Shown here in pieces: positions 10,201 through 39,101 of a stretch of DNA of 64,000 nt. The stretch is from the NCBI RefSeq assembly GCF_900142325.1, contig NZ_FRAM01000001.1:1426001-1490000 (forward strand), written 5' to 3'. This stretch comes from Epilithonimonas mollis (GTDB taxonomy: Bacteria; Bacteroidota; Bacteroidia; Flavobacteriales; Weeksellaceae). A program made the position numbers and the translations under genes. The notes under the pieces are model-generated. The model saw nothing but the letters and a program-made list of their open reading frames with translations. It ran no database searches and was not told the origin of the DNA. The stretch's first letter is position 1. Each line of letters begins with the position of its first letter.

Positions 10201-10232
10201 AAATGGTTTGAGTACGCCTGACTGATATTTAT

Positions 10233-10478
10233 GGTCGAGTCTTTTTACTCAACGATGAGTCTGTTTGATTCCACGATGAGTCTTTTTACTTAACGACCAG
10301 TCTTTTTTACTCAACGATGAGTCTTTTTATTCAACGACTAGTCTTTTTGATTCGACGATGAGTCTTTTTTACTCAACGATGAGTCTTTTTATTCAACGAC
10401 CAGTATTTTTGATTCCACGATGAGTCTTTTTACTCAACGACCAGTATTTTTTACTCAACGATGAGTGTTTTTATCTCG
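10233..10478. repeat. Minisatellite of 12 units of 20-21 bp, each a potential hairpin
   Basis: The consensus unit is GATGAGTCTTTTTACTCAAC. Units start at 10233, 10254, 10275, 10295, 10316, 10336, 10357, 10378, 10398, 10419, 10439 and 10460 (last one partial). Each unit holds GAGT and ACTC around a T-run, so it can fold on itself; the join between units (ACTCAACGATGAGT) can also fold. Variants alternate GATGAGT with GACCAGT or GACTAGT, and ACTCAAC with GATTCCAC. It fills the spacer between coaX and the M1 peptidase gene, downstream of the latter. No spacers of unique sequence, so not CRISPR. Confidence 0.9.
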
Positions 10479-10513
10479 TTTCAGATTTATCCTCTTCATC
10501 TTTTGTCTTAATC

Positions 10514-14598: not shown

Positions 14599-14607
14599 AT
14601 TTTGTTG

Positions 14608-14679
14608 CTCGCAGATTGGGCAGATTCAGCAGATTTACATTGAAAAAAAAGAATCTGCAAAATTTGCCCAATCTGCGAG
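14608..14679. terminator. Long imperfect inverted repeat between convergent genes, probable bidirectional terminator
   Basis: The left arm begins CTCGCAGATTGGGCAGATT (14608) and the right arm ends AATTTGCCCAATCTGCGAG (14679). The first 15 bases pair perfectly and the inner part imperfectly; the loop is A-rich. It lies exactly between the xylanase and M14 stop codons. Unlike a normal terminator it has no clear T-run, and the word GCAGATT recurs three times, so a repeat origin is likely. Confidence 0.6.
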
Positions 14680-14688
14680 AAATTTATT

Positions 14689-35680: not shown

Positions 35681-37039
35681 TTACAAACTTTGCATCCATT
35701 CCATAATCGGGTCATAAAGCGTATCGATATTTCCAGCTCCAACAGTCAGAAGAATGTCAAAATCTCTTTCTTTTATTTTATCAAAAGTCTCTTGCAATGT
35801 GCAGACTTCCTTGTTTTCTGTTTCAATTTTTTCAGCCAACCAAGTTGAGGTGATGCCTTCAAAATTTTCCTGAAGTTCTCTCGCCGGATAAATATCGAGC
35901 AACAACAAGTCATCTCCGTTTTCCAGACTTCTAGCGAAATCCTCGGCAAAATCTCTTGTCCTGCTGAACAAATGCGGTTGGAAAACCACCAGCAATTTTT
36001 TGGTCGGATAGAAAGTTTTAATCGAACCAATAACCGCATTCAGTTCTGTTGGATGATGCGCATAATCATCGATATAAATCTTTCCATTCTCGAAAATATG
36101 CTTCGTATATCGTCTTTTTATACCTTTGAAGTTGGCGATTGCTTTCTTCAAAGTTTCGAAATCGACACCTAAATTGCTCAAAATCGCCAAAGCAACCGTC
36201 GCATTTTCAACATTGTGAATGCCTGGAATATCCCAAACAAAATCAGCGATTTCTTCCGTTGGTGTGTGGAAATCGAAGTAGATTTTGTCGTGGTCCATTC
36301 TCAGATTATCGGAATAATAATCCGCCTCCTCATTTACAGCGTACGTTTTGTGCTCTCTTCCAATCGCAATTCCTTTTCTCACGAATAATTGATTATCATT
36401 CGGAACCAAACTTGCAAATTGTCTGAAACCATCTTCTATCTGAACTCTGTCGCCATAAATATCCAAATGGTCCGCATCAATCGATGTAACCACTGCCCAA
36501 TCCGGAGAAAGGTTGAGGAAACTTCTGTCATATTCATCGGCTTCAACTACTGAAAACTGATTTCCGTTGTAATCGAAATTCGATTTGAAATTCTCAGAAA
36601 TCCCACCTAAAAATGCGGAAGACGGAAGATTAGCTTCTTTGCACAAATGGGCTATCAACGTAGAAGTGGTTGTTTTTCCGTGTGTTCCTGCCACAGCGAT
36701 GCAATCGGTGTTTTCGGTAATTAAACCTAAAACTTTTGCGCGTTTCAGGATGACGAAACCTTCGCTGGTAAGGTAATCCAGAATTGATAATTTCTTGATG
36801 GCCGGCGTATAAATCACCAAAGTTGATTCTTTATCGAACGCCACGATTTTCTCATCAATCACATCTTCAAACGTAATATCAATGCCTTCAAAACCGAGTT
36901 GAGCTGTCAGTTTTGTTGGCGTTTTGTCATAACCCAAAACATTTTTACCGTTGGCGTGGAAATACCGCGCCAGCGCACTCATTCCAATCCCACCGATGCC
37001 GATGAAATAGAAGTTTTGATATTTGTTTAAAATGCTCAT
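35681..37039 (-). CDS. murC: UDP-N-acetylmuramate-L-alanine ligase
   Basis: Adds L-Ala to UDP-MurNAc, the first amino-acid step of the murein precursor. Nucleotide motif GIGGIGMSALAR (14-25) binds the UDP sugar and AVAGTHGKTTTS (115-126) is the ATP loop. DDYAHHPTELNAVI is the family block of the C-terminal domain. At 452 residues it is normal. Its ATG overlaps the stop of the upstream lipoprotein gene by 4 bases, coupling translation to a non-dcw gene. Confidence 0.96.
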   Translation of the reverse strand: MSILNKYQNFYFIGIGGIGMSALARYFHANGKNVLGYDKTPTKLTAQLGFEGIDITFEDVIDEKIVAFDKESTLVIYTPAIKKLSILDYLTSEGFVILKRAKVLGLITENTDCIAVAGTHGKTTTSTLIAHLCKEANLPSSAFLGGISENFKSNFDYNGNQFSVVEADEYDRSFLNLSPDWAVVTSIDADHLDIYGDRVQIEDGFRQFASLVPNDNQLFVRKGIAIGREHKTYAVNEEADYYSDNLRMDHDKIYFDFHTPTEEIADFVWDIPGIHNVENATVALAILSNLGVDFETLKKAIANFKGIKRRYTKHIFENGKIYIDDYAHHPTELNAVIGSIKTFYPTKKLLVVFQPHLFSRTRDFAEDFARSLENGDDLLLLDIYPARELQENFEGITSTWLAEKIETENKEVCTLQETFDKIKERDFDILLTVGAGNIDTLYDPIMEWMQSL

Positions 37040-37506
37040 TTTTTCTTTCTTTTATACCATTTATTGTATGGTTTTGTGGACAAATAAAATGTATTAATAT
37101 AATCTTTGTCTCTGGTCATTCCCACTCTCAGATATTTGACACTATCATTTTTTTCAGTTTTAACATTAAAAACAAACAAGTCATAAAAATCTAACGGATA
37201 AACATTAGTTTTAGCAGCGTATAAACTTCCAATCTCTAATTTCCCATATTTTTTTTCAAAGCTCTCACAAACGGTCTTATTTCTTTCATGGGAGAAATAA
37301 TTCTTCATATTGACATCCATATTGAAGCCTGTGACTTCGGAGTAATCCTTTTTTTCACATTTAGAAAAAAAATTTTCAGCAAAGTTTTTAGCTAAAGTTT
37401 GTCTTGCTTGTGTATTATTTTTTGCTGGCATATTGTTATACCGGTTCATGCAACTTGATAAACCTATCAAACAAAGAACTATTAATATGTGTTTCAAAAA
37501 TTTCAC
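37036..37506 (-). CDS. Hypothetical lipoprotein inserted in the dcw cluster
   Basis: I do not recognise a family. The 156-residue product has a signal peptide with lipobox IGLSSC (Cys19) and a small alpha/beta domain with blocks AENFFSKCEKKDYSEVTGF and YDLFVFNVKT, resembling DUF3887- or NTF2-like tails only in general appearance. It lies directly upstream of murC with a 4-base overlap, and 34 bases downstream of the left arm of the GIY-YIG element. It is more AT-rich than the mur genes. It may have arrived with, or before, the neighbouring element. Confidence 0.75.
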   Translation of the reverse strand: MKFLKHILIVLCLIGLSSCMNRYNNMPAKNNTQARQTLAKNFAENFFSKCEKKDYSEVTGFNMDVNMKNYFSHERNKTVCESFEKKYGKLEIGSLYAAKTNVYPLDFYDLFVFNVKTEKNDSVKYLRVGMTRDKDYINTFYLSTKPYNKWYKRKKK

Positions 37507-37540
37507 TGTTTCTATTTTTTATCTTCCTAATCATTTGTGT

Positions 37541-37563
37541 TGTCAGGCTGAGCCTGTCGAAGC
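37541..37563 (+). repeat. Left 23-bp terminal inverted repeat of the GIY-YIG element
   Basis: Begins TGTCAGGCTGAGCC and ends GTCGAAGC, 3 bases from the nuclease stop codon. It is the exact reverse complement of 37872-37894 and contains the internal hairpin CAGGC-TGA-GCCTG. Confidence 0.9.
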
Positions 37564-37566
37564 ACT

Positions 37567-37860
37567 TTAATCTTTCATCCTATTTTTTGATAATTCTGGT
37601 AACAAATCCCATTTATCATTAATAATTGCTTCTTTCTTTTTTCTACTCCAGCCTTTTACTTGTTTTTCAAAGTCTATCGCTTGATTAATATCATTAAATT
37701 CATAATGAAAAACTAATTTTACTGGTCTTCTTTTGTATGTATAACTATCTGGATTTAATCCATCATTATGTTCGTTAATTCTACTTTCCAAATCGTTAGT
37801 AACTCCTGTGTAGTAAGAATTATCCGAACATTTTATAATATATACATAATATCGTTTCAT
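37567..37860 (-). CDS. GIY-YIG nuclease family protein (YhbQ/UPF0213-like)
   Basis: A 97-residue single-domain GIY-YIG endonuclease. The motif appears as YVY (5-7) and YTG (17-19); the catalytic Arg27 (in DLESRINEHN), His31 and the metal-binding Glu65 (in AIDFEKQVKGW) are all present, so it should be active. No DNA-binding domain is attached, unlike homing endonucleases or UvrC. Small proteins of this kind are abundant in flavobacteria and have no settled role. It is bracketed by perfect 23-bp inverted repeats 3 and 11 bases from its ends, and lies in the same orientation as the dcw genes, so read-through is tolerated. Confidence 0.9.
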   Translation of the reverse strand: MKRYYVYIIKCSDNSYYTGVTNDLESRINEHNDGLNPDSYTYKRRPVKLVFHYEFNDINQAIDFEKQVKGWSRKKKEAIINDKWDLLPELSKNRMKD

Positions 37861-37871
37861 TATTACTTTGG

Positions 37872-37894
37872 GCTTCGACAGGCTCAGCCTGACA
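37872..37894 (-). repeat. Right 23-bp terminal inverted repeat of the GIY-YIG element
   Basis: Begins GCTTCGACAGGCTCAG and ends CCTGACA. It is the exact reverse complement of 37541-37563 and lies 11 bases upstream of the nuclease start codon. Confidence 0.9.
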
Positions 37895-37909
37895 CCGCTT
37901 TTCTTAACT

Positions 37910-39016
37910 TTATCTTTTAATCACTTTAAAAATCTCATCCACAATGTCTTCCGCAGCTTTTGGTTTTGCAAAGAATTCCAGATTATCAGACATATCTTTT
38001 CTCAGATTTTCGTTCTCACAGATTTCTGAAAGCGTGTTCCAGAATTTGTCTTTCATTTCAGAATCCTTTACCATTCTTCCTGCATTTTTCTCGACCAAAG
38101 TCATTGCATTTTTGGTTTGATGGTCTTCTGCAGCAAATGGAAACGGCACCAACAAAACAGGTTTTTTCGCAACTGCCAGTTCGGAAATCGCAATTGCTCC
38201 GGCTCTGGAAACAATCACATCTGCCGCCGAATAAGCCAAAGCCATATCGGAGATGAATTCCTTGATTTGTATTTGCTTGTTGGTTTTTAGTATTTGGTTT
38301 TCGGAAATTTCCCTAAAATCTGTTCTTCCTGTTTGCCAGATGAGTTGATAATCTTTTTCTTTTAATTTATCTAAATTCTCTTTCCAACCGTTGTTCAAAG
38401 TTCTGGAACCGAGCGAACCGCCGACGGATAGAATCGTTAATTTATTTTTATCTAAGCCTAATTTTTCTTTAGCCAAATCTTTATCAATCAAATCCGTAAT
38501 GATATTCTGACGAATTGGATTTCCTAAGAAATAAGTTTTTGTTCCGTAGAAAAGTTTCTCCATATCCGGATACGCCGTGAAAATTGCTTTCGCCTTTTTT
38601 GCATTGAAAACATTGGTTTTTCCTGGCAAAGAATTCTGCTCCTGAATGAAAGTAGGGATTCCCATTTTCGCAGCGATGTACAAAGCTGGTCCGCTTGCAA
38701 AACCACCAGTTCCAACCGCAAAATCCGGTTTGAAATCTTTGATGATTTTCTTAGCTTTCATCAAACTGGAAATGATTTTAAATGGCAATCCGATATTCTT
38801 CAGAAGATTTCCTCTGTCGAATCCGGCAATGTTCAATCCTTCTATTTTGAATCCGGCTTGAGGCACTTTTTCCATTTCCATTTTTCCGTTGGCACCAATG
38901 AACAAAAACTCTGCATCGGGAAACCGTTTCTGGATTTCCTGAGCAATCGCAACCGCAGGAAAGATGTGTCCACCTGTTCCGCCACCGCTTAATAATATTT
39001 TCAGTTTTTTGTTCAT
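37910..39016 (-). CDS. murG: UDP-N-acetylglucosamine-lipid I transferase MurG
   Basis: Adds GlcNAc to lipid I to give lipid II at the cytoplasmic face. The N-terminal SGGGTGGHIFPA (10-21) and the UDP-GlcNAc site VVSRAGAIAISELAV, with PFPFAAEDHQTKNA, are intact. The start at 39016 (MNKKLKILLS) is preferred; an in-frame ATG at 39037 would add seven residues without family support. The product is 368 residues. The 3' end is 16 bases from the right arm of the GIY-YIG element. Confidence 0.95.
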   Translation of the reverse strand: MNKKLKILLSGGGTGGHIFPAVAIAQEIQKRFPDAEFLFIGANGKMEMEKVPQAGFKIEGLNIAGFDRGNLLKNIGLPFKIISSLMKAKKIIKDFKPDFAVGTGGFASGPALYIAAKMGIPTFIQEQNSLPGKTNVFNAKKAKAIFTAYPDMEKLFYGTKTYFLGNPIRQNIITDLIDKDLAKEKLGLDKNKLTILSVGGSLGSRTLNNGWKENLDKLKEKDYQLIWQTGRTDFREISENQILKTNKQIQIKEFISDMALAYSAADVIVSRAGAIAISELAVAKKPVLLVPFPFAAEDHQTKNAMTLVEKNAGRMVKDSEMKDKFWNTLSEICENENLRKDMSDNLEFFAKPKAAEDIVDEIFKVIKR

Positions 39017-39101
39017 ATGTTCCATTGGTTTCACCAACTGTTATTGATATTGAATCCTTCGGATTATTAAATTGTTTCTTTTTACTTTTATCTTGTTTCT
39101 T

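Follow-up and report, generated by a model that had tools for sequence, protein, structure and literature searches.

The site-specific single-strand nucleases of Neisseria named Ssn, which are GIY-YIG enzymes, are reportedly paired with NTS repeats (Chenal et al. are said to have described them in Nat Commun in 2025), and many Ssn homologues are said to have each a repeated sequence of its own. The locus analyzed here resembles the reported Ssn pairing in that a small stand-alone GIY-YIG protein goes together with a sequence that recurs in its genome, and its repeat is likewise matched to the enzyme, by linkage, clade and enrichment. It probably differs from Ssn in its occurrence in Bacteroidota, in three classes co-resident in one genus, in a covarying stem, in a gene flanked by an arm at either end, and in head-to-head elements that come and go. 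The original prediction knew of no settled description of such a pairing; this was partly right, but Ssn of Neisseria is reportedly one. Through Ssn, as reported, a pairing of this kind is already known, and the present system varies a theme common to REP/RAYT and Ssn.

In the available part of a 2013 survey (Di Nocera et al. 2013, PMC3733652), palindromic repeats were sorted into GTAG families, which occur with RAYT, and CGTC families, which apparently have no dedicated transposase, include dRS3 of Neisseria and were reported in Bacteroidetes among others. The main text of the survey contains the string "GIY" at no point. The present locus resembles RAYT/REP/REPIN systems, described in part in PMC3733652, in that the enzyme gene is bracketed by REP-like hairpins, non-autonomous copies form inverted pairs, and repeat class is tied to clade. 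Unlike in RAYT systems, the enzyme is a GIY-YIG protein (PF01541) and not a Y1 HUH transposase, and the tag is TGTCA and not GTAG. The CGTC repeats, to judge from the same part of PMC3733652, are also short tagged palindromes found mainly as head-to-head dimers, whereas here TGTCA marks classes A to D and CGTCA class E alone. The GIY-YIG nucleases are thus a candidate enzyme for a repeat superfamily that the survey, in its available part, left without one.

The available part of a phylogenomic study of GIY-YIG proteins (PMC1564403) draws no link between nuclease and repeat. That of a Moraxella study (PMC9465073) names both a RayT and a GIY-YIG gene in one set of clade-specific genes and states no link between them. 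Literature word searches, whose incomplete coverage left the Ssn work outside, returned no paper that we recognized as linking GIY-YIG genes to such repeats, and a search for the repeat words themselves found none.

The nuclease gene and its arms

The window, which is the whole stretch of 64,000 nucleotides analyzed, carries a stand-alone class-A GIY-YIG gene of 97 codons at 37567..37860 on the minus strand. Its upstream neighbor is murG (37910..39037, minus strand; PF03033, PF04101) and its downstream neighbor murC (35681..37039, minus strand; PF01225, PF08245, PF02875). The protein scored 67.8 bits against PF01541 (cut-off 22.6, E=1e-18), and no NCBIfam model matched it. Y6, Y16, G18, R26, H30, and E64 were among the invariant columns in an alignment of 25 sequences; we take the conserved tyrosines, arginine and glutamate (Y6, Y16, R26, E64) to be the catalytic-type residues of GIY-YIG nucleases. 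By this score and these residues, the protein belongs to the PF01541 GIY-YIG superfamily. The nearest solved structures by sequence were 1zg2 (E=1.8e-14) and 1ywl (E=9.9e-11), both deposited as hypothetical proteins and both of UPF0213, which we take to be YhbQ.

As predicted, perfect 23-bp arms in inverted orientation bracket this gene, with gaps of 3 and 11 bases: TGTCAGGCTGAGCCTGTCGAAGC lies downstream at 37541..37563 (plus strand) and its exact complement upstream at 37872..37894 (minus strand). Read on the gene strand, the upstream arm comprises the tag TGTCA, the stem GGCT/AGCC and the class-A core CTGAGCCTGTCGAAG. Its outer stem is fully paired and its end lies 11 bases from the start codon; the downstream, inverted copy has a G-A mismatch at the second outer pair. 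The arms were the sole perfect inverted pair of at least 20 nt among the repeats listed for the window. When one mismatch was allowed, CAGGCTGAGCCTG matched the window at the two arms only, and 100 shuffles gave 0 matches.

The unit does lie between murG and murC, but the accompanying statement that these two genes are adjacent in standard dcw clusters often does not hold in this genus. A 156-aa ORF (37036..37506, minus strand) separates murC from the unit in the window, and another ORF often parts murG from murC in genomes of the genus, even where the unit is missing. The 156-aa ORF starts with LSSC, presumably a lipobox-like motif, and searches of Pfam, NCBIfam, and PHROGs gave no match. Similar lipoprotein-like ORFs come after murG in many genomes of the genus. 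In G002, G003, and G019, the GIY-YIG unit was present and no match to this ORF was seen; the window's own genome alone, of the loci compared, has both. PADLOC matched no known defence system, and no RNA family reached the gathering threshold in 36900-38600. Elsewhere in the window, a 31-base imperfect hairpin with CAGATT-type words (14605-14682; arms 87% complementary, 16-base loop) is apparently a different palindromic element, and 10201-10488 is occupied by a tandem repeat (period about 20.5 bases) for which nine overlapping copies of 103 bases each are listed.

Hairpin structure and class-specific pairing

In the conserved hairpin, the tag TGTC and an A precede a stem NNCT/AGN'N', which closes a class-specific interior; the class-A repeat reads TGTCA followed by NNCT-GAGCYTGTCGA-AGN'N'. 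The NN/N'N' pairs, formed by the dinucleotides that precede CTGAG and follow TCGAAG, were complementary in 371/393 and 322/393 distinct motif instances, counts that related copies inflate, compared with shuffle means of 139.5 and 172.0 and maxima of 164 and 189. In the own genome, where the value is independent of orthologues, they paired in 20/23 and 19/23. Pairing at positions outside NN/N'N' did not exceed the largest shuffle.

The hairpin drawn in the original prediction, CAGGC-TGA-GCCTG (37544..37556, plus strand), is indeed the predicted minimum-energy fold of both window arms, in place of the covarying stem, which counts against the NNCT/AGN'N' reading. It was nevertheless discarded as a conserved structure, since it was complete in just 8/67 class-A copies and the outer stem NNCT/AGN'N' in 60/67.

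A search of the own genome (3.70 Mb, 13 contigs) found 18 places within three mismatches of the 20-base core and 0 places for the reversed core. Exact class patterns numbered 12 for class A (TGTCANNCTGAGCYTGTCGAAG), 7 for class B (...GYTC...), and 36 for class C (...CGNAG...).

Relatives of the nuclease were collected as the best 80 of 172 from named genomes plus further loci from other genomes; the resulting 151 loci were reduced to 130 for the linkage count by merging identical first 270 bases. As anticipated for close homologues, 102 of 104 distinct relatives of at least 63% identity had a repeat near the gene (from 250 bases before it to 350 after residue 92), and 76 of the 104 were bracketed in inverted orientation. 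L088 and L221 were the close relatives with no motif nearby. Repeats occurred at 3.26/kb near the gene and at 0.19/kb in the remainder of the same loci, a 17-fold difference, and 106 kb of Y1 loci held 4 copies; they are not equally common elsewhere. On both of these points, flanking and density, the outcome favored the original prediction, which the opposite result would have refuted. The A/B/C motif was seen near 2/7 GIY-YIG genes of 52-63% identity and 2/19 below 52%, genes that serve as a negative control for the A/B/C motif only, since 20/26 of them adjoin some tagged palindrome. In 26 of the 30 proteins that have a GFDSAQPD-like tail, the residues of the tail come from translating the downstream repeat in frame.

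Pairs of repeats at most 120 bases apart in the loci examined comprised 80 head-to-head (HH), 60 TT, and 28 HT cases; hairpins that flank the gene, together with inverted dimers, are features of a REPtron. In head-to-head dimers the spacer measured 25-35 bases in 29/37, and a spacer box, TAATACTAA, was present in 11/37 against a shuffle maximum of 2.

Three GIY-YIG matches were found in the own genome, namely the window gene, a copy at C4:1329951, and one within a 603-aa open frame that is probably UvrC, by its length. The copy at C4:1329951 (L127) has class-C repeats and an internal TAG, in a genome that carries 36 class-C repeats.

The pairing is class-specific, as repeat classes track protein clades. 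A tree was built from 99 of the 151 rows (identity at least 62%, at least 85 aa, distinct protein; 95 columns), and on it, with few well-supported forks, the A/B/C labels needed 6 changes. When the untyped rows were given a fourth label, 9 changes were needed compared with a shuffled mean of 34.1, and 0/200 shuffles were as low. Where both flanks could be typed, they belonged to the same class in 70 of 71 cases. Each gene of the two-paralogue genomes of the genus (G000, G002, G003, G010, and G022) lay beside its own class. The clades cross genera: all three classes occur in genomes named Epilithonimonas and likewise in genomes named Chryseobacterium.

Copy numbers were compared in 197 genomes of the family after subtracting the two copies at the gene, with permutation within genera. 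Genomes with a class-A gene had a median of 13 A copies (17 genomes), compared with 0 in the 180 without. The corresponding medians were 26.5 and 0 for class B (8 and 189 genomes) and 7.5 and 0 for class C (20 and 177 genomes). For each class, 0/2000 genus-stratified permutations were as extreme as the observation, while the off-class tests gave 68 to 850 of 1000, the closest being C genes against A repeats (68/1000).

For these comparisons, gene classes were assigned from the individual loci. Genomes scored as lacking the gene include G030 (L221, with no repeat), G067 (L224, with just an ATTG motif), and those whose GIY-YIG genes fell below about 62% identity, even where, as at L235 and L236, B-like motifs are present. 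Class B was assigned to G163 (L218) on the basis of clade, despite its class-A copy upstream, and genes that are fragmentary or contain a stop (G066, G130, G158, G196, and the own second copy) were scored as present. Copies occurred in genomes with no class-matched gene in 69/180 (A), 19/189 (B), and 51/177 (C) cases. These counts go against the pairing; they fit a slow decay of copies after the gene was lost, or a different route of spread. In the window's own genus, the class-C contrast was slight, with 4-58 copies where the gene was present (median 22, n=7) and a median of 15.5 where it was absent (n=16). The 102/104 linkage, the clade-tracking classes and the class-matched enrichment together show that the pairing of nuclease and repeat is not due to chance.

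Dispersal of the repeats and inheritance of the gene

The scattering of non-autonomous copies proposed earlier was borne out by orthologous spacers, which contain a copy in some species and lack it in others. Five sites of the own genome (G000) were compared with orthologous spacers of seven relatives, wherever both anchors were found. At S2 (C4:1320954), a two-hairpin element of G000 was missing in 7/7 relatives, and at S3 (C4:1326891) about 176 inserted bases were missing in 7/7, two of which were aligned. S1 (C4:912545) was filled in G000 only, of 6 compared, with spacers otherwise divergent. S4 (C5:103093) was filled in G000 and G019 and absent in G001, G006, and G021, with unrelated sequence in G022. 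At S5 (C4:213885), decayed copies were also found in G022 and G003 and none in G005 and G001, and G021 had a different spacer. No target duplication was fixed at the S1-S5 copies. Because two-hairpin elements are present or absent whole and 25-35-base spacers recur, the dispersed unit is the head-to-head dimer, as with REPINs.

We consider it reasonably probable that the locus represents a REP/RAYT-like partnership, in which a GIY-YIG nuclease is dedicated to the one class of tagged hairpin that brackets its own gene. Cleavage of the hairpin, and spread by means of cleavage, are suggested by analogy with RAYT/REP and Ssn. The enzyme would recognize its class-matched hairpin when this is single-stranded, during replication, uptake or recombination, and would cut near the YGTCA tag; the cut, followed by repair or recombination, would allow two-hairpin elements to spread. 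GIY-YIG enzymes act on DNA by hydrolysis and have no known strand-joining activity, so that such spread would need host repair. The gene itself would stay put, mostly inherited vertically and sometimes carried in a recombined locus, and the hairpin just ahead of the start codon may also enable the enzyme to regulate its own gene. With three co-resident nuclease-repeat pairs and natural presence and absence in one genus, the upkeep of the repeats can be tested.

The alternative that survives best, although we regard it as rather unlikely, is that the nuclease guards or modulates DNA uptake and recombination by cutting incoming or exposed single-stranded DNA at the repeats, as is reported for Ssn of Neisseria; the repeats would be landmarks spread in some other way. 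The same class-specific pairing would be expected, and natural competence is reported in related Riemerella. The unit has also been exchanged with its flanks between two genomes, as by recombination: a block nearly identical in G002 and G019 begins ahead of the murG end, continues beyond the downstream arm and reaches the murC start, with surrounding flanks mostly 77-90% identical per 150 columns. Since the shared block extends beyond both arms, the alignment points to a recent exchange that included flanking DNA and not to a jump ending at the arms. An uptake guard alone, however, leaves the two-hairpin elements unexplained, as they share the TAATACTAA box and are present or absent as units.

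The REP/RAYT-like partnership, with a gene that would stay at its site, stands against the original proposal that gene and arms hop as a minimal element, excising and inserting as one autonomous transposon. We judge such a transposon improbable. The arms stand at both ends of the gene, as it would require, and the unit is present or absent at the murG-murC junction: among 23 genomes of the genus it was found in 4 and was absent in 18, the remaining junction being cut by a contig end. The junction comparison named as a refuting test gives a mixed result: empty sites are real (18 of 22 readable junctions), yet wherever the unit lies beside murG it occupies one same site, common to Epilithonimonas, Chryseobacterium, and Elizabethkingia. 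This shared site in three genera, and an exchange that carried DNA beyond the arms, speak against hopping. Eight rows of the class-A clade (seven distinct proteins), which matched neither murG nor murC in the part examined, would fit a transposon, but groups of 8, 11, 11, 15, and 30 loci each have both flanks in common (some of them the same genome twice), and among the 17 typed genes of the genus no genome was seen to carry the same class twice. The single class-A gene of the own genome and the flanks common to loci speak against a classical insertion sequence, and no target-site duplication was noticed. In one genome, the class-B unit at L106 (G022:C1:1829220) is inverted in place relative to five other genomes of the genus with the same flanks. 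Such an inversion would suit a transposon and is equally explained by recombination between the inverted arms, which would give it.

Among 28 pairs of 8 orthologues, dN/dS was 0.02-0.12 in the 22 with measurable dS above 0.2, indicating purifying selection; the other six were excluded, five because dS could not be measured and one at a dS of 0.02 (ratio 0.215). The unit is intergenic and leaves the murG and murC frames open, whereas a homing endonuclease element interrupts a conserved gene, as an intron or intein, at its own target. Relatives were found in just 4 contigs of the viral collection (30-42% identity) and just 2 records of the plasmid collection (46-51% identity), and carriage by phage or plasmid was set aside as unsupported in the collections searched.

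Mobilization of the hairpins in trans by Y1 (RAYT-like) transposases, with the GIY-YIG link reflecting something else, appears very improbable. Y1_Tnp matches were present in 21/23 genomes of the genus, with 3 in the own genome; at one of these three (L286), a motif lies some 560 bases off the middle of the locus. Of 56 matches, 32 loci, the own three among them, were examined: 29 had no A/B/C motif, and none of the 32 was bracketed. For these 29, no D or E motif was seen either, and the three loci with a motif held 4 A/B/C copies in total, none of them bracketing and none closer to the middle than about 560 bases. G001 and G021 carry repeats (46 and 28 copies) and no Y1 match, the tag is TGTCA rather than GTAG, and repeat class follows the GIY-YIG clade. 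A Y1 transposase was set aside as an unsupported owner of the repeats on the 0/32 bracketed loci and the repeats of the Y1-less G001 and G021. A Y1 gene lies about 2-3 kb from murG in four genomes of the genus (L190, at G022:C1:3030945, L191, L192, and L193), possibly as another foreign gene near the dcw cluster.

That the arms are ordinary intergenic hairpins (terminators or RNA stabilizers) beside the gene by coincidence would suit their intergenic position near the gene ends, but is hardly credible given the 17-fold density beside close relatives, the class matching and the copy-number association.

Distant GIY-YIG genes and classes D and E

Among the 26 distant GIY-YIG loci (below 63% identity), 11 have one class of tagged palindrome on both sides in inverted orientation. 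The palindromes beside these genes include class D (TGTCATTCCGNAGGAATCT and variants) and class E (CGTCAnTTCGAG...TATCGAGAA). Their density in 24 distant loci was 2.54/kb near the gene and 0.74/kb in the rest, a weaker contrast than for A/B/C. Class-D copies were predicted to be high in G012, G015, G016, and G021 and low or zero elsewhere, and this agreed only in part, which counts against the proposed partnership: these genomes had 22, 58, 10, and 33 copies, compared with 0-58 elsewhere, and class D was present in 22/23 genomes. G017, with a variant D gene, had 58 copies, and G008 had 47 with no GIY-YIG match at E<=0.001.

With the palindromes beside distant genes in support, we suggest only tentatively, and with more doubt than confidence, that small GIY-YIG nucleases may be the missing enzymes of a YGTCA/CGTC-tagged REP superfamily across bacteria. 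They would form a second lineage of REPtrons that has converged on RAYT/REPIN, each nuclease clade maintaining its own hairpins by cutting them when single-stranded. If this is true, a GIY-YIG nuclease would have convergently replaced the HUH enzyme in the upkeep of genome repeats, and the family would supply small nucleases that differ in the hairpins they target.

At L227 (G159:C1:1618600-1623200), four tandem class-E GIY-YIG genes lie within 2.3 kb, a local gene amplification, and class-E palindromes were found beside the tandem gene copy that was read.
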